A stretch of 32,848 nucleotides of DNA from Alphaproteobacteria bacterium (GTDB lineage Bacteria; Pseudomonadota; Alphaproteobacteria; Thalassobaculales; Thalassobaculaceae), in the NCBI GenBank assembly GCA_013203465.1, contig JABMNR010000114.1, positions 1 through 32,848 of the forward strand, given 5' to 3'. Positions 26,365-32,542 of the stretch are shown piece after piece (the stretch's first letter is position 1; each line of letters opens with the position of its first letter). The notes under the pieces were generated by a model that saw only the letters and a program-made list of their open reading frames with translations, made no database searches and was not told the DNA's origin. Both the position numbers and the translations under genes were made by a program.

Positions 26365-27288
26365 ATGCCGCCAACCAACCATGCCGGACTGATTGCCCGC
26401 GCCCCCGCCAAGGTCAATCTCTGTCTCCACGTGATCGGTCGCCGTCCCGACGGCTATCACGAACTGGATAGCCTGGTGGCGTTCGCCGACATCGGGGATC
26501 TATTGACCTTGGTGTTGGACGAAACACGCCATTCCTTGCAGGTGCTCTGCAGGGAATCTCCCGTGCCCTCACTCTCCAAGACAGAGGTAGTGCCCACTGG
26601 GGTGGACAACCTCGCCTGGCGCGCCGTGGCCATGGCCGGACGCATTATCGGCGATCTGGACGGGTTTCGGTTGATGCTGGAAAAAACCTTGCCCTCGGGT
26701 GCCGGGCTTGGCGGCGGATCGAGCGACGCGGCGGCGGTCCTCGATCTCGTCGCTCGCGTCACCAACACCGATCCGGCGACAATGGCAGGATCAGCAGTAC
26801 TCGGCGCCGATGTTCCGGTGTGCCGCGTGCCAAGACCTTGGCGAATCAGTGGTTTTGGCGATCGTCTCATGCCCGTCGAGCTGGCGCGCCCATTGCCGGT
26901 GGTCATCGTGTGGCCCGGCGTTGGCCTATCGACCGCCACGGTGTTCGCCCGGCGGACGGGTGCCTTCGGCGCGGCCATCCCAAATGAGGCGATTCAGCGT
27001 TTGGCAACCGATCCGATCGCCGCACTGGCGGATCTTCGAAACGATTTAGCGACCGCCGCCGCAGCCCTTGAACCCGGTATCAGCAAAGCACTACACGCCC
27101 TTGAATCTACCCGGGAGTGCGCCCTCGCCCGCATGTCCGGCAGCGGTTCAACCGTGTTCGGCCTGTACCCAACCGACGCTGCGGCAGAGAGTGCCGCCGA
27201 GCAGCTGCAGACCCTACATCCATCGTGGTGGATACGCTCAACGGTTCTGCATAACGAACCGATTGATCGCTTTTTTATAGATAGTTAA
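26365..27288 (+). CDS. ispE: 4-diphosphocytidyl-2-C-methyl-D-erythritol kinase IspE
   Basis: GHMP kinase of the MEP isoprenoid pathway. The 307-residue product shows ARAPAKVNLCLHVIGRRPDGYHELDSLVAF at the N-terminus (with the substrate-binding lysine K16), the ATP loop LPSGAGLGGGSSDAAAVL, LGADVPVC with the catalytic aspartate, and the C-terminal GHMP motif ARMSGSGSTVFGLY. The ATG at 26365 begins one base after the TGA of the TPR gene, so the two genes are probably cotranslated. It ends 5 bases before the end of the convergent PodJ-like gene, with no visible terminator between. Confidence 0.96.
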   Translation: MPPTNHAGLIARAPAKVNLCLHVIGRRPDGYHELDSLVAFADIGDLLTLVLDETRHSLQVLCRESPVPSLSKTEVVPTGVDNLAWRAVAMAGRIIGDLDGFRLMLEKTLPSGAGLGGGSSDAAAVLDLVARVTNTDPATMAGSAVLGADVPVCRVPRPWRISGFGDRLMPVELARPLPVVIVWPGVGLSTATVFARRTGAFGAAIPNEAIQRLATDPIAALADLRNDLATAAAALEPGISKALHALESTRECALARMSGSGSTVFGLYPTDAAAESAAEQLQTLHPSWWIRSTVLHNEPIDRFFIDS

Positions 27289-27293
27289 CTAGA

Positions 27294-29357
27294 TCACCCC
27301 CGGAGACGTGCGATCAAGGCCACCGATGGTAAGCCTGTCACCGGCAGGCCCTCGGTGGCTTGATACCGGCTAATCGCGGCGCGCGTTCGGGGCCCGGCGA
27401 TGCCATCAACGACCCCATCATAGAGACCACGATCAAGCAATCGCTGCTGAATGTCGGCAATACCTTCCGCGCCCAACGCTCCATCCACCGCCGTTGTCGT
27501 CTCGGTATCCGCCAACGCGGGAACGCCACCGACGGTGCCGGCGCCCTGGGTCTTAAGCCATGCCCGCGCCTTATCATGATCAAGCGCCGCCGCGCGGCGA
27601 AACAGTTGCTCGGCTTCCGCTTGGTCAGCCGGGCGGCCCAACCCTTCGTGGGCAAAGACCGCGAGGTTGTACAGCGCACCAGGAACACCGCGGTCGGCCG
27701 CGCGGCGGAACCAGCGCCCGGCCTCGGCGTAGGACTGCGGAATTCCGCGCCCGGCGGCGTACAACACACCGAGATTGTATTGTGCCAGCGGATGTCCCTG
27801 TTCGGCGGCGCTGTGATACCACAGCAAAGCACGGGTGGCGTCCGCCGGCACGCCGGTACCGGTCTCGTGCAGGACCCCAAGATTATACTGCGCGTTCGCG
27901 ACACCGTTGATCGCCGCTTCCCGGAACCACACCGCCGCCTCGGCATAGTCTGGCACCGCGTTATTGGCGAGCGCTACGGCGAGATCGTGCTGTGCCTTAA
28001 AATCACCCGCGCGGGCCCGTGCCAGCAGAGCCTCGCGCTCGGACACAGCCGGAACCTCATTCGGCGCCGATGAACCCGCCACCACAGGTGGGGCTAATCT
28101 CGGTGAGATCGGTGGCGCCGTATCATCATCGCTTGTTTGCGCCGCTACCTTCGCTGCCGATGCCGGCGGCGTGTGGATTGCCGCAATGCTTGGCGCGCTC
28201 GGCAAGGGCGTCAGCCCCCGATCAACGGTTTCAAGCATCTGATCGGGCGCGGCATCAGGCTCTGCACCGGGCGCAACAATAATTGGCACAGGTGGCGCGG
28301 TTCGCGGACTGGGTAGAGACGCCACCGGCGATACCGGACGAGGACTGGGCGCCATGGCCGCATCGCCTTCCGCCTCAGGCTCGATGAGACGCTGAATCTC
28401 GGTCCAAATCTCAACGGTCCAGGCATCGATCTCGGTCCACGCCGCCTGCCCAGCCGCCCGCATACTATGCCCAATTTCGGTAATCTTGCGCTCCAGCGTC
28501 GGTCGATCGAGGCGCCCATCCATGCCGGACCAGACCGCGCCCAGCAACACGACCGCGAGCAGAGCCAGCGCCGACAGCGCCCATAGCCAGCCGCGCCATC
28601 GCCGGACGCGGCGAGCCGGACGAACATTGGCCGCGTTCCCGATCCGCTTGGGGCCAACCCGCTGGGCCGTCACGGGGATGGATTGCTCAAACCCGGATGG
28701 CCTCTCATCCAACGGGGGGTCAAGCGATCCTGCGGTGAACGGCTCCGGTTCCATATCGGTGGTCGGCGGCACCGGTGCCAAGCGTACGTCGGCCGGCCGG
28801 GGCACGCCGGCGTCTCGGCGCAAGGCCTCGGCATCGAGCTCGGGCTCCGGAGACCAGTCGACCGGGGGGCCGTCAGGCGTGGGTGATTGATCAACTGGCC
28901 CGCCATGGACAGGCAGCAAAGCCGGATCTTGGTCCTCAACCCCTCGTGGGCCCGCCTGTTGCGTCCCGGGCAAGGTTAAGCGAGCCGTGGCCCGGGGCCG
29001 CTTTTCAATCGCCACCAGACGTTCCGCCACGTCGCGCAATCCATAGGCGATGGGGCGCAAGGTCGCGTCGAACCGAGCATCGGTGTCATCAAGACGGTGA
29101 AACACCGCTTCCAAGGTCTCAGGGCGAAGGCCCATGGTCGGCGCGGCATGGCGCAGGCCACCAGACGTCCCGACCTCGGTATCGGTATTAGCAGGATGGG
29201 TTGGTGCGCCCCCGCTCCGCGCGCCGGCATCAGCCCGGATCGCGTGATCGATCCATTCACCAATCGTCATGCCCGCCGCCTGCGCGGCACGACGAGCGAT
29301 GTCGCGCGTTGCCTGATCGACGCCCTTTACACTCCAGGCAGATCCGTGACGCGCCAC
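27294..29357 (-). CDS. PodJ-like polarity protein: WSVKG motif, one transmembrane helix, Sel1 repeats, peptidoglycan-binding domain
   Basis: A 687-residue bitopic protein with the architecture of Caulobacter PodJ. It has an N-terminal element (residues 6-40: WSVKGVD, GMTIGEW), a short helical segment (72-120), a long Pro/acidic cytoplasmic stretch, one membrane helix (256-277) after a basic RRVRRWR, a periplasmic Pro/Ala linker (330-440), Sel1-type TPRs (about 450-603; for example AQYNLGVLHETGTGVPADATRALLWYHSAAEQG), and a peptidoglycan-binding domain (630-687; IQQRLLDRGLYDGVVDGIAGPRTRAAI). PodJ organises the flagellar/stalk pole in Caulobacter; the coiled-coil cytoplasmic part is much shorter here. 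The start is a GTG at 29357 with GGAGG just before. The two genes upstream encode proteins with the same N-terminal element. Confidence 0.8.
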   Translation of the reverse strand: MARHGSAWSVKGVDQATRDIARRAAQAAGMTIGEWIDHAIRADAGARSGGAPTHPANTDTEVGTSGGLRHAAPTMGLRPETLEAVFHRLDDTDARFDATLRPIAYGLRDVAERLVAIEKRPRATARLTLPGTQQAGPRGVEDQDPALLPVHGGPVDQSPTPDGPPVDWSPEPELDAEALRRDAGVPRPADVRLAPVPPTTDMEPEPFTAGSLDPPLDERPSGFEQSIPVTAQRVGPKRIGNAANVRPARRVRRWRGWLWALSALALLAVVLLGAVWSGMDGRLDRPTLERKITEIGHSMRAAGQAAWTEIDAWTVEIWTEIQRLIEPEAEGDAAMAPSPRPVSPVASLPSPRTAPPVPIIVAPGAEPDAAPDQMLETVDRGLTPLPSAPSIAAIHTPPASAAKVAAQTSDDDTAPPISPRLAPPVVAGSSAPNEVPAVSEREALLARARAGDFKAQHDLAVALANNAVPDYAEAAVWFREAAINGVANAQYNLGVLHETGTGVPADATRALLWYHSAAEQGHPLAQYNLGVLYAAGRGIPQSYAEAGRWFRRAADRGVPGALYNLAVFAHEGLGRPADQAEAEQLFRRAAALDHDKARAWLKTQGAGTVGGVPALADTETTTAVDGALGAEGIADIQQRLLDRGLYDGVVDGIAGPRTRAAISRYQATEGLPVTGLPSVALIARLRG

Positions 29358-29423
29358 GAGGCCTCCGAAATCAATACGGTAGCGCTCGTAGTATAACCGG
29401 GTAGCGCTCTGGAGAAAAGAGGG

Positions 29424-30224
29424 TCAGCGACGGCGAAACAACCGTGAGAAAAAGCCACCGCCGGAGTTGGCGGATGGGAGTGTGATCTCCTCAACCCGCT
29501 GCAATCGCTCCGACAAACGCATCACCGCCCGCTCGATCGGCGCGGTCGTCGGGCCGCTATCGGTGTCCGACCCGTCACCCACAGGTCTCTCCTCGAGCGC
29601 CCGCAAGGAGTCTGTTAGCGTTTCAACGCGACTGTCCATCGCCGAGGAACGCGCTTCTAGTCGCGTATCCAACGCCTCAATCCGCTGGGCCAACGCATCA
29701 AGGCGCTCGGCAAGATCAGCAATTTTCGTATCCAGCCCGACAGTCATGGCCAGCTTCTTCCGCAAGGCCGTCAGTTCTCCGTCGCGGGCGCGAAGCTCGG
29801 TGACCCGCTGCTCCAAATCGTTCAGGCGACGCGGATCAACCGACGGAGCCGCCGCTCGAGACGCGGTCACCGCGGGCGGCGGCGGCGCTTCATGATAGTT
29901 AGGTCGTTGATTGTCGACGAGCCCGGTCCGCCAGGGCGTCAGAGCCGGCCCTCCTTGCGGCGCTAAATGTCCCGCCTGGATCGCCTGCTCGGCTTGCCGC
30001 CACTGTCCTGGACCAAAGCCGAATCGTCCCGCGGACACATCCTGCTCCGGTGCCTCGGCGAAGGGCGCGCGCTCGGTTTGGCGGCCTCCGTTCTGCGCCG
30101 CCTCGCGAATGCGTTGCGTCAGCCACGCGCCAATCGGCACGCCGGCGCGCCGTGCCGCCTGTTTGACCAGCTCGCGCTCCTGCAAGGCGATTCCCTTTAC
30201 ACTCCAAGGCGACGGTCCGGACAT
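29424..30224 (-). CDS. Coiled-coil protein sharing the PodJ N-terminal WSVKG motif
   Basis: A 266-residue soluble protein not recognised as a named family. Residues 6-40 (PWSVKGI ... RRAGVPIGAWLTQRIREA) repeat the N-terminal element of the PodJ-like protein. A Pro/Gln-rich linker follows (45-130), then a long coiled coil (132-212; LNDLEQRVTELRARDGELTALRKK, then LAERLDALAQRIEALDTRLEARS), a short second helix (228-247), and a tail ending FFSRLFRRR, an amphipathic basic end that could touch membrane or nucleic acid. There is no membrane helix. The ATG at 30224 has GGAGG 5 bases upstream. It is 66 bases from the PodJ-like gene. A 14-base run coding the WSVKG core (30193-30206) is identical in both genes (29323-29336). 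Confidence 0.7.
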   Translation of the reverse strand: MSGPSPWSVKGIALQERELVKQAARRAGVPIGAWLTQRIREAAQNGGRQTERAPFAEAPEQDVSAGRFGFGPGQWRQAEQAIQAGHLAPQGGPALTPWRTGLVDNQRPNYHEAPPPPAVTASRAAAPSVDPRRLNDLEQRVTELRARDGELTALRKKLAMTVGLDTKIADLAERLDALAQRIEALDTRLEARSSAMDSRVETLTDSLRALEERPVGDGSDTDSGPTTAPIERAVMRLSERLQRVEEITLPSANSGGGFFSRLFRRR

Positions 30225-30281
30225 GTGTCCTCCGGTGGTTCGAACCGGCGATAACAGGCGCTCCGGATCGGAAGTACCGAT

Positions 30282-30299
30282 AGTATGACACGGCATACT
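30282..30299. repeat. Operator-like inverted repeat at the predicted start site of the coiled-coil gene
   Basis: AGTATG (30282-30287) and CATACT (30294-30299) form a perfect 6-bp dyad with a 6-base centre, overlapping the expected transcription start near 30297. The size suits a dimeric repressor; no regulator is known. Confidence 0.4.
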
Positions 30300-30303
30300 T
30301 AAG

Positions 30304-30331
30304 AGTGTATTAAATTTAACTGAATTGTCCA
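30304..30331 (-). promoter_or_regulatory. Sigma-70-type promoter for the middle WSVKG gene
   Basis: On the minus strand TGGACA (30331-30326; 5 of 6 to TTGACA) and TACACT (30309-30304; 4 of 6 to TATAAT) are 16 bases apart in an A+T-rich gap. Transcription would start near 30297. This would let the two downstream genes be expressed apart from the 134-residue gene. Confidence 0.42.
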
Positions 30332-30343
30332 GTAATAGGCAAG

Positions 30344-30365
30344 AGACCAAACATTTTATTGGTCT
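30344..30365. repeat. Inverted repeat between the two small WSVKG genes
   Basis: AGACCAA (30344-30350) pairs with TTGGTCT (30359-30365) around 8 A+T-rich bases. It lies just upstream of the promoter candidate at 30304-30331. It is too A+T-rich and lacks a T-tail for a terminator, so a protein-binding dyad is as likely. Confidence 0.3.
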
Positions 30366-30426
30366 ACTTGCTGAATCTCGTGACGAAACGAGAAACTACG
30401 TGGTCATTCGTCCGGCTCGGAAACGG

Positions 30427-30831
30427 TCATAGCACATCGTCGTCCGCCGACCGCGCCTCAACACGTTGTTCGAGGCGATCAAGGCGATCGGCAAGGCGCC
30501 CGACAATCTCGTCCAACACGGCCAGAACATCTAGAATACGGGTCTCACTGCGCTCGATTCGCTCGGAGATCAACTCGGTCAAGGCCGCATCATCCAACAG
30601 CTCCGTGGCTGGTTCTTGCCAACCAGACATGTTCACACCGCTTGATGGCCGTGATGCCGGAACCAGGGGCCGGCCGGCGGCCTCGGCGGCGCCGACCCGG
30701 CGAATCACGTCGCTCAACCAATCGCCCATGGTGCTGTTCCGGTCGCTCGCCGCGACCTTGGCTAACTCCCGGGTATCCCCGCCAACACCCTTGACGCTCC
30801 ACGGCATACGCGCCTTACCACGTGCGGCCAT
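30427..30831 (-). CDS. Short protein with the PodJ N-terminal WSVKG motif and a C-terminal coiled coil
   Basis: A 134-residue protein without a named family. Residues 10-46 (PWSVKGVGGDTRELAKVAASDRN, then MGDWLSDVIRRV) repeat the N-terminal element of the next two genes. A Pro/Ser linker (50-75) and one helical coiled-coil segment (76-127; AALTELISERIERSETRI, then LADRLDRLEQRVEARS) complete it. There is no signal peptide or membrane helix. The ATG at 30831 has GGGAG 5-6 bases before; an ATG at 30807, directly before PWSVKG, is an alternative. It is the first of three same-strand genes with this element, and three GANTC sites lie just upstream. Confidence 0.7.
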   Translation of the reverse strand: MAARGKARMPWSVKGVGGDTRELAKVAASDRNSTMGDWLSDVIRRVGAAEAAGRPLVPASRPSSGVNMSGWQEPATELLDDAALTELISERIERSETRILDVLAVLDEIVGRLADRLDRLEQRVEARSADDDVL

Positions 30832-31006: not shown

Positions 31007-31067
<61 letters not shown>

Positions 31068-31081
<14 letters not shown>

Positions 31082-31132: not shown

Positions 31133-32542
31133 TTAGACAAACGCGACAAGGTCAACCGGCTCGTCGAGTCCGGCCACGCGGCGTCCTGGTCGATTCTCGA
31201 TCGCTCGTTTTGGCTTCCAGCCTTGGCGTAACGCGGCCTGCCGGGTCGCCTCGTCAGTCAGACCGGCTACCGCCTCGACCTTGGTGTGCTTCTCCAGCTT
31301 AGCCGCGAGATTCACCGCCGATCCAATCACCGTGTACTCTAGGCGCGAGGCGTCACCCACGGCGCCGAACACAATGGGTCCCGCCGCCGCCGCCACGCCG
31401 ATTCGGGGCGCCGGCACGTCACGGGCGGCCCGCTCCTCGCGCCAGAGGGCGGCGGCCTCGATCACCGCCTCGGTTGCCAACAGGGCATCGGACGCGGCGG
31501 TATCGGACACGCGCGTGGCCCCGAAAGTGGCCAGAATCCCATCACCCAGGAATTTGTCGATGCCGCCTCCGTGGCTCTGCAGCACGGGAACGATGGTTTT
31601 CTGGTATTCGGCAAGGATCTGCATCAGCTCGTCGGGCGTAATCTGAGTCGCCAGTTGCGAGAACCCGCGGATGTCGACCATGACCACGGCAGCCTCGCGC
31701 ATCTCACCGTGTCCAGCCTCGATCTTCAGGTCGAGATCGGTGATTCGATCGGCCACGTCTTGGGCGAAGAAGCGTGATAGCTCCTGATTGGCGAGGCTGT
31801 CGCGAACCGCCTCGACCAGCAATCGACGGGCGCGGACGATGGCAACCGCCAGGATCGCCGTCACCATGAGAATCGAGATGATCTTGTCGAACTCGGCGCC
31901 GATCAACACGGCGTTGCTGGTCAGGTAGAAGACATAGTCACGGGTAATCGGCGCCGCCATCGGGTCGAACAACAGCGCATAGGCGACCATGCATACCCAC
32001 CCCACGGCCGATGCCACGCCCGCCAGAACCACGTAGGCGGGCTCGAAACGCAGGGTTCGCAGGGCGATGAAGATGAACAGATACAGCAGGGTCGGCGCCT
32101 TCAGATAGAAAGCCGCCGGTTGCATGTACTGCAGGTGGAAGCTCCAGATCGTGCCGAGCAACAGCGCCACGTCCACCACCACCGACAACGCCAGGAACAA
32201 TCGGGTCAAACCACGGCGATAAGCCAACACCAGCCGCGCGATCGTGAACACCACGTAGGCGCCCAAGACCCAGGGAATCGGAGCGAACTCGACCTCGGGC
32301 GGAAACGCTTTGGGCGAAATCGCGTAGAGTGTGCCGAAGGCACCCACCACCGCCAACTGCACCCAGCCGATCAGGATTTCGCTCCGATCCTGATGCGCAC
32401 GCATCGCGTCGCGCACCCGCTTTGGCAGGTCCGCCGTCACGCGGTCCCCGGCCGGCCGGTCGTTACGCGCCGGTTCGATCGCCGGCGGCGCGGCGGTCGG
32501 CGGCCGCTCGGAAGAGTGGGTTGTTGTGTTCACGTCGGGCAT
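31133..32542 (-). CDS. Membrane-bound class III adenylate/guanylate cyclase
   Basis: A 469-residue protein predicted to make cAMP at the inner membrane. After a Pro-rich cytoplasmic start there are about six hydrophobic helices (between residues 55 and 236), then NQELSRFFAQDVADRI linking to a C-terminal cyclase domain (about 283-469). Metal-binding aspartates D290 (VVMVDIRGFSQL) and D334 (FLGDGILATFG) are present. K330 and T404 (EYTVIG) fit adenine selection. N411 of the transition-state motif is present, but the usual arginine four residues later is K415 (NLAAKLE). This substitution may lower activity. The ATG at 32542 begins MPDVNTT. It follows the methyltransferase gene after 27 bases. Confidence 0.87.
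   Translation of the reverse strand: MPDVNTTTHSSERPPTAAPPAIEPARNDRPAGDRVTADLPKRVRDAMRAHQDRSEILIGWVQLAVVGAFGTLYAISPKAFPPEVEFAPIPWVLGAYVVFTIARLVLAYRRGLTRLFLALSVVVDVALLLGTIWSFHLQYMQPAAFYLKAPTLLYLFIFIALRTLRFEPAYVVLAGVASAVGWVCMVAYALLFDPMAAPITRDYVFYLTSNAVLIGAEFDKIISILMVTAILAVAIVRARRLLVEAVRDSLANQELSRFFAQDVADRITDLDLKIEAGHGEMREAAVVMVDIRGFSQLATQITPDELMQILAEYQKTIVPVLQSHGGGIDKFLGDGILATFGATRVSDTAASDALLATEAVIEAAALWREERAARDVPAPRIGVAAAAGPIVFGAVGDASRLEYTVIGSAVNLAAKLEKHTKVEAVAGLTDEATRQAALRQGWKPKRAIENRPGRRVAGLDEPVDLVAFV

Follow-up and report, generated by a model that had tools for sequence, protein, structure and literature searches.

A conserved three-gene array of Alphaproteobacteria shares with PodJ an N-terminal head suggestive of a ribbon-helix-helix fold

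The window analysed here, a stretch of 32,848 nucleotides from an alphaproteobacterium of the family Thalassobaculaceae (assembly GCA_013203465.1, contig JABMNR010000114.1, positions 1 to 32,848 of the forward strand), contains three neighbouring genes, all on the minus strand, for proteins of 134, 266 and 687 residues, here called S, M and L. Their open reading frames were confirmed, and each protein begins with the same head of about 37 residues, which is shared with PodJ, the model polarity scaffold, and suggests a ribbon-helix-helix (RHH) fold.

30427..30831, minus strand: gene S, 134 residues, with an RHH-like head, a linker and a C-terminal long helix (residues 81-133), from the open reading frame and the AlphaFold model
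30697..30804, minus strand: head of S (head profile E-value 1.2e-16; own row of the profile)
29424..30224, minus strand: gene M, 266 residues, with a head, a coiled coil and a conserved C-terminal module
30099..30209, minus strand: head of M (head profile E-value 3.0e-17; own row of the profile)
29427..29546, minus strand: C-terminal module of M, APIERAVMRLSERLQRVEE ... GGFFSRLFRRR, like the ends of M proteins of other families as judged by eye
27294..29357, minus strand: gene L, 687 residues, GTG start, PodJ-like, with a head, linker, membrane helix, Sel1 repeats and peptidoglycan-binding domain
29229..29339, minus strand: head of L (head profile E-value 1.5e-19; own row of the profile)
28530..28586, minus strand: membrane-helix-like segment of L, about residues 258-276, by hydropathy only
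27576..27899, minus strand: three Sel1 repeats of L (Pfam E-value 6e-28)
27306..27467, minus strand: PG_binding_1 domain of L, residues 631-684 (Pfam E-value 2e-11)

Among the three proteins, the membrane-helix-like segment (by hydropathy), the Sel1 repeats and PG_binding_1 (by Pfam) are confined to L, as a preliminary description of this locus had reported; its observation that three adjacent minus-strand genes start with one element also stands, on the open reading frames, pairwise BLASTP comparisons and a search of the genome. The heads of S and M are identical at 21 of 45 residues (E-value 5e-8) and those of M and L at 21 of 51 (E-value 2e-7), and S matches L without gaps over L residues 8-123 (33/116 identical, E-value 4e-10). 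A search of the window's genome with the M head recovered the three genes at E-values of 7.7e-28, 3.5e-6 and 7.4e-5, with the next match at 0.27. The residues W, S, K, G, R, G and W are invariant across 31 heads of the window's family, and sequence searches of the PDB returned no relative of the element. The 14-base run TGGAGTGTAAAGGG, also reported earlier as identical in two of the genes, was found in M (30193-30206) and L (29323-29336), with no third copy in the window; since all heads of 24 further family loci compared lack it, it seems to reflect incidental codon choice and was set aside as a meaningful element.

Two protein families that accompany the head module, S and M, appear to be covered by no Pfam or NCBIfam model. 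S- and M-type proteins scanned against NCBIfam gave no match at a model's cut-off and weak coil-type matches only, and L and PodJ-type proteins matched models of the Sel1 and peptidoglycan-binding type far below the cut-off. Across many families, M proteins end, as judged by eye, in A-P-x-E-R-A...R-L-x-E-R-L followed by an aromatic-basic tip. A search of a plasmid collection gave no match.

The element is that of PodJ, as had been proposed: one profile finds both the heads of the window and the start of a 974-residue protein of Caulobacter vibrioides DSM 9893 (E-value 4.2e-16; not a row of the profile), which has a membrane helix near residue 643, Sel1 repeats (Pfam E-value 8e-27) and a PG_binding_1 domain (Pfam E-value 2e-14). 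In the available text of a study of PodJ and PleC, PodJL spans residues 1-974 (PMC8980812). The C. vibrioides genome has one head, the next match having an E-value of 0.35. When a narrowed (Caulobacter-like) head alignment was run against named genomes, the best 80 of 585 confirmed relatives came mostly from Brevundimonas and Caulobacter, with a few metagenome-assembled genomes under other titles. L resembles Caulobacter PodJ in its N-terminal head, single membrane helix and periplasmic Sel1 repeats and PG_binding_1 domain. Caulobacter PodJ, however, is a single long protein, to which the available parts of two papers assign six coiled coils (PMC9684454, PMC10127582), and the long coil-rich cytoplasmic part (CC1-6) was not found in L. 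The helix of L lies at about residue 258, and a heptad proxy gives 0 coil residues in the cytoplasmic part of L and 176 in C. vibrioides PodJ, although this proxy is crude and gives fewer than 50 residues for 6 of 17 single PodJs as well.

A protein of the family PF10691 (DUF2497), which we take to be PopZ, is encoded in the genome of the window and, among 14 control genomes, in C. vibrioides only. In the available text on the Caulobacter protein, CC4-6 of PodJ binds PopZ (PMC10127582), cytoplasmic PodJ (residues 1-635) is polar, residues 250-635 are diffuse or patchy, and residues 1-249, described as a coiled coil, are needed for polar accumulation of the cytoplasmic part (PMC8980812). The head falls within the part of PodJ whose loss abolishes the polar foci of the cytoplasmic piece.

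The head is best read as an RHH fold, which several weak scores suggest. A panel of 31 heads scanned against Pfam at E-value <= 10, with E-values given without scores or cut-offs, matched seven families, of which five (TacA1 with 5 heads, NikA-like with 3, PSK_trans_fac with 2, HicB with 2 and FitA-like_RHH with 1) are RHH families; the other two were RuvA_C and Ycf15. The S protein of locus L071 matched PSK_trans_fac over residues 10-38 (E-value 0.0026), with RHH scores below the curated cut-offs (19.1 versus 28.3 and 14.3 versus 21 bits). The AlphaFold model of S (mean predicted local distance difference test score, pLDDT, 79.9) has helices at residues 18-30, 35-51 and 81-133, with an extended stretch before the first. 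When this model was aligned by VIA-align with 74 chains ranked by Foldseek, rows 1-8 were all RHH proteins, namely KacA (Z 6.1), AtaR (twice), TacA2, AtaR2, Arc (5.4), CdbA (5.2) and TacA3 (4.6), with root-mean-square deviations (r.m.s.d.) of 1.9-3.8 over 45-49 residues within model residues 5-55; the first unrelated row had a Z of 4.3 and MatP one of 3.6, and all of these lie in the range (Z < 8) in which, by the aligner's own note, a match may reflect a common arrangement. In these predicted monomers, an extended stretch and, after it, two helices as long as those of RHH proteins superpose on known RHH chains. The head of C. vibrioides PodJ was modelled with a pLDDT of 68 and helices at 13-25 and 30-41 (fragment numbering); its first-ranked Foldseek match was 1myl, presumably an Arc variant (r.m.s.d. 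1.7 over 35 residues, E-value 1.6), and chains of Arc, VapB, MatP and CopG turn up repeatedly, mixed with other folds and all with E-values above 1. On an Arc-like reading, in which we assume that the strand residues Ser and Lys face the DNA, the lysine is kept in 20/26 S, 22/27 M, 28/30 L and 10/12 PodJ-type heads with a letter at that position, and the serine in 23/26, 24/27, 25/30 and 12/12, respectively.

A number of points weigh against this assignment. The best E-value of the 31-head scan (0.0011) belongs to RuvA_C and not to an RHH family, the best of which reached 0.0022, and at most 13 of the 31 heads match any RHH family. The S, M and L proteins of the window match no RHH family in Pfam at E-value <= 1; of 14 further proteins compared with Pfam, one gave RHH matches, below cut-off; and no sequence score above a curated RHH cut-off was seen. 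Foldseek E-values were 0.69 or worse, the second-ranked Foldseek match of the PodJ head is an unrelated H-NOX chain with an E-value equal to that of 1myl, and DSSP assigns no strand in the monomer models, as is expected of a monomer and hence no confirmation. Two PodJs of family f147 have Asp in place of the strand lysine. The alternative that the element is a wholly unknown fold was nevertheless set aside in favour of RHH on the Pfam panel, the AlphaFold model and the VIA-align result. The preliminary description had envisaged that the element might prove to be a widespread DNA-binding fold unconnected with PodJ; the fold does look to be of a DNA-binding type, but the connection with PodJ holds.

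Whether multi-gene arrays recur had been raised as a check, and they do: the order S-M-L is found, mostly beside the same two neighbours, in the window's family and in at least nine others.

31007..31081, plus strand: tRNA-Gln(TTG), kept neighbour on the S side, also seen in relatives
26365..27288, plus strand: GHMP kinase that we take to be ispE, convergent neighbour on the L side (Pfam and tblastn; start assumed)

Of 36 genomes of the family, 26 match M and 26 match S at E-value <= 0.001, some of these matches being sister heads. Two genomes of 1.5 Mb from genus g10 (G022 and G023) and two of normal size from genus g2 (G001 and G002) have no M or S match. Among 26 family loci (the window and 25 fetched), 18 have at least three heads, seven have two and one, cut by a contig end, has one. 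The heads lie on one strand in 25/25 multi-head loci, and the membrane helix is confined to the last gene in 23 of these, the exceptions being L068 and L090, the L of which is cut by a contig end. At L068:4347-7343 and L124:4534-5070, L has no detectable helix or Sel1 repeats, unlike its same-genus relatives, and a frameshift or assembly fault is possible. In five two-gene loci of genera g3 and g12 (L083, L084, L086, L087 and L089) the large gene encodes only 349-383 residues and is separated from ispE by 570-785 bp, which may hold a further gene or a lost tail.

Class-wide, the head is present in 100/387 genomes (98/378 of high quality). Forty class loci, picked by hand from the 100 genomes with a match, comprise 14 with at least three heads, ten with two and 16 with one; the heads are on one strand in all 24 multi-head loci, and the helix is in the last gene only in 18 of them. 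Of the six exceptions (L124, L136, L138, L147, L160 and L161), L136, L138 and L147 have a PodJ-size gene first and an M-like gene second. The 16 single-head loci encode eight PodJ-like proteins of 772-1148 residues, one of 682 and seven short proteins of 104-312 residues. At L141:5328-8397 and L151:5719-8093, M keeps its head and the adjoining L-type gene (helix, Sel1 and peptidoglycan binding) starts headless; that of L141 lies in two overlapping frames. A sample of the phylum gave matches in 50/397 genomes, 11 of them outside the class, and the six of these that were read are proteins of 85-135 residues with a weaker head (24-32 bits). These sequences from outside Alphaproteobacteria (L251-L256), short, with a head-like start (e.g. 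PWTIRDI) and a coil-like end, are possible distant relatives.

By tblastn, 23 of the 25 fetched family loci have ispE, the other two being short contigs; of the 40 class loci, 26 have it, made up of 14/14 with at least three heads, which represent nine families besides the window's, 7/10 with two and 5/16 with one. It is convergent with the head genes in 49/49 loci and starts less than 400 bp from the last head gene in 37 of these, the remainder being at 411-3378 bp with one overlapping. A scan of 20 loci for tRNA-Gln found it in 19; only the podJ locus of C. vibrioides lacked it. The neighbourhood of Caulobacterales podJ is thus not that of L: tblastn found no ispE in three Caulobacter podJ loci (L213, L194 and L210), and a search of 9.5 kb around C. 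vibrioides ispE gave no head.

Conserved candidate operator sites lie upstream of L in the window's family.

29400..29409, minus strand: operator-like site 1, GAGCGCTACC, part of the tandem site at the L promoter
29378..29387, minus strand: operator-like site 2, GAGCGCTACC, 22 bp from site 1
29390..29395, minus strand: TATACT, -10-like hexamer of L between sites 1 and 2, by eye; not listed by the promoter scan

The pattern GCGCTACC-N14-GCGCTACC has four occurrences in the 36 genomes, all immediately before L, and with a spacer of N12..16 it occurs once each in G000, G028, G029 and G030, with a 22-bp period, a -10-like hexamer between the copies and always the same place before L. Words were counted in 24 gaps before L from nine of ten genera (g9, with a gap of more than 1 kb, was left out) against 100 first-order resamplings: CTACCG is present in 9/9 genera (no 6-mer exceeded 7 in the resamplings), CGCTACC in 7 (no 7-mer exceeded 6) and GCGCTACC in 6 (no 8-mer exceeded 4). 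The S-M gap has no conserved motif above resampling. Counted within 120 bp upstream of genes, RCTACC or its complement precedes L in 19/25 family loci (two or more in 15), M in 8/18, S in 0/25 and other genes in 15/235 (two or more in 2). In loci of other families it precedes M in 4/16, S in 4/21, the lone gene of a single-head locus in 1/1 and other genes in 5/136.

In size, order of secondary structure and weak Pfam matches the head resembles RHH antitoxins and repressors (TacA, AtaR, KacA, FitA and Arc). Unlike RHH antitoxins, however, the heads described here carry coils or a membrane anchor, and no toxin gene was recognized between tRNA-Gln and ispE in the window. S resembles MatP, which in the available text combines an RHH head with a C-terminal coiled coil and, unlike S, has an additional N-terminal four-helix bundle (PMC12756933). 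MatP and CdbA, the latter an RHH protein of chromosome organization according to partial source text, differ from this system in that the tandem site occurs once per genome that has it and not in many places. In the titles and abstract openings searched, with bioRxiv and most subscription journals outside the scope, there was no RHH head in PodJ, no such array and nothing on a podJ promoter with autoregulation or a DNA-binding domain; in the parts of the texts available, PodJ and ribbon-helix-helix appeared together only in separate contexts.

Our preferred reading, held tentatively and with slightly less than even confidence, is that L is a PodJ-like envelope-anchored scaffold with which the soluble S and M pair through RHH heads, a head probably acting at the L promoter. 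The three genes would form a set of long standing, with heads that are paralogues. In L, the RHH-like head and the linker would be cytoplasmic, and the Sel1 repeats and peptidoglycan-binding end, on the far side of a single membrane helix, periplasmic. The soluble partners S and M would carry the same head and one coiled coil each, M having in addition its conserved C-terminal module with the aromatic-basic tip. From the fold we infer that the head most likely dimerizes as RHH folds do, such that S, M and L could each pair with themselves or with one another, possibly at a pole. Through L the assembly would be anchored in the envelope, and further contacts, with other proteins or with the membrane, might be made by the coils and the M tip. 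The tandem sites spanning the L promoter are probably bound by at least one of the heads, which may limit the synthesis of L, autoregulation being the simplest use that the site arrangement would offer an RHH head there; the S head may be the binder, since some genera without M keep the sites.

The preliminary description instead took the functions of PodJ, its coils in particular, to be split among the three proteins, with the element as a polar targeting tag. The cytoplasmic part of L is indeed short in the arrays and nearly devoid of coil (median 0 by the crude heptad proxy), and S and M supply coil in part of the window's family. In a tree of 99 heads, however, the labels S, M, L and PodJ require 9 changes versus 52.6 in shuffles (0/200 as low), in an alignment of 46 columns with 61/96 inner branches open and with labels set by gene order; PodJ heads are not resolved from those of L. 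Because the heads group by gene and not by genome, forming three old groups, S, M and L are read as old paralogues, which argues against a recently split PodJ. Summed coil, again by the crude proxy, has a median of 28 residues in 19 arrays versus 116 in 17 single PodJs, so that conservation of the total coil length, raised earlier as a check, is not supported. The cytoplasmic lengths are close (median 649 for S, M and L summed, range 317-892, versus 667, range 472-936); with unequal coil, this would permit a division of labour but not a conserved total. M moreover has its own C-terminal module, and the array keeps one place across many families whereas C. vibrioides podJ lies elsewhere. We therefore regard a split of PodJ as very improbable, while one part of the proposal, a shared element, survives as a plausible RHH-like assembly head.

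A closer competitor to our preferred reading is that the heads are RHH dimerization or assembly modules that have lost DNA binding, the sites at the L promoter belonging to an unlinked regulator. It agrees with the presence of the heads on scaffold-type proteins, with the Asp of the two PodJs noted above and with the distribution of the sites, for they are absent from the 200 bp upstream of eight podJ genes of Caulobacterales, and RCTACC is patchy outside the family, preceding L in 4/21 loci (genera g127 and g148 only). In the four genomes with the tandem site, however, its only occurrence is at the L promoter, as would be expected of a dedicated local regulator, and the strand-face Ser and Lys are otherwise kept in most heads; we consider a loss of DNA binding somewhat unlikely. 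Other findings besides those on the distribution of sites also count against the preferred reading. A reversed control of the tandem pattern likewise occurs four times in the 36 genomes (in four genomes), so the evidence lies in the place of the sites and not in their number; of 17 strict close pairs in 25 family loci, nine are upstream of L and eight elsewhere, with one pair in 22 loci outside the family; and the L proteins of L141 and L151 lack the head. In the available text on PodJ, the periplasmic part can reach the pole by itself, and the regulation of PodJ is undisturbed by YFP fused to its N terminus (PMC8980812). It is also conceivable, if quite unlikely, that S amounts to a shortened, soluble version of the front of L, serving as its antagonist or capping partner, and that M is the true adapter. 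S aligns with L without gaps, as described above, and the parts of S and L behind the head are colinear in a profile comparison (P 4e-6), but S and the coil of M match about as well there (P 7e-6), so that coil composition alone may explain the colinearity.

A stronger form of the preferred reading, in which the RHH head of PodJ-type proteins is a functional DNA-binding domain and S and M form mixed dimers with it that switch the L promoter through GCGCTACC, appears to us unlikely on present evidence. If true, a membrane- and peptidoglycan-anchored polar scaffold would be able to touch DNA itself, and envelope polarity would be tied to the chromosome or to transcription within one protein family. 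Should the first 40 residues of PodJ be an RHH head, its assembly and localization would be open to point mutation. The old S-M-L locus beside ispE presents the head module in another form, with a clear candidate operator.

Upstream of M, the inverted repeat AGTATG-N6-CATACT (30282-30299) was noticed by eye, near one further feature.

30304..30331, minus strand: sigma-70-like match TGGACA-16-TACACT upstream of M, at chance level (1 versus 0.8 in shuffles)

Adjoining tRNA-Gln, the window encodes at 31133-32542 a protein with an adenylate/guanylate cyclase domain (Pfam E-value 1e-9), relatives of which (55-72% identity) are present at loci L067-L072, L076, L080, L081, L090, L122 and L123.

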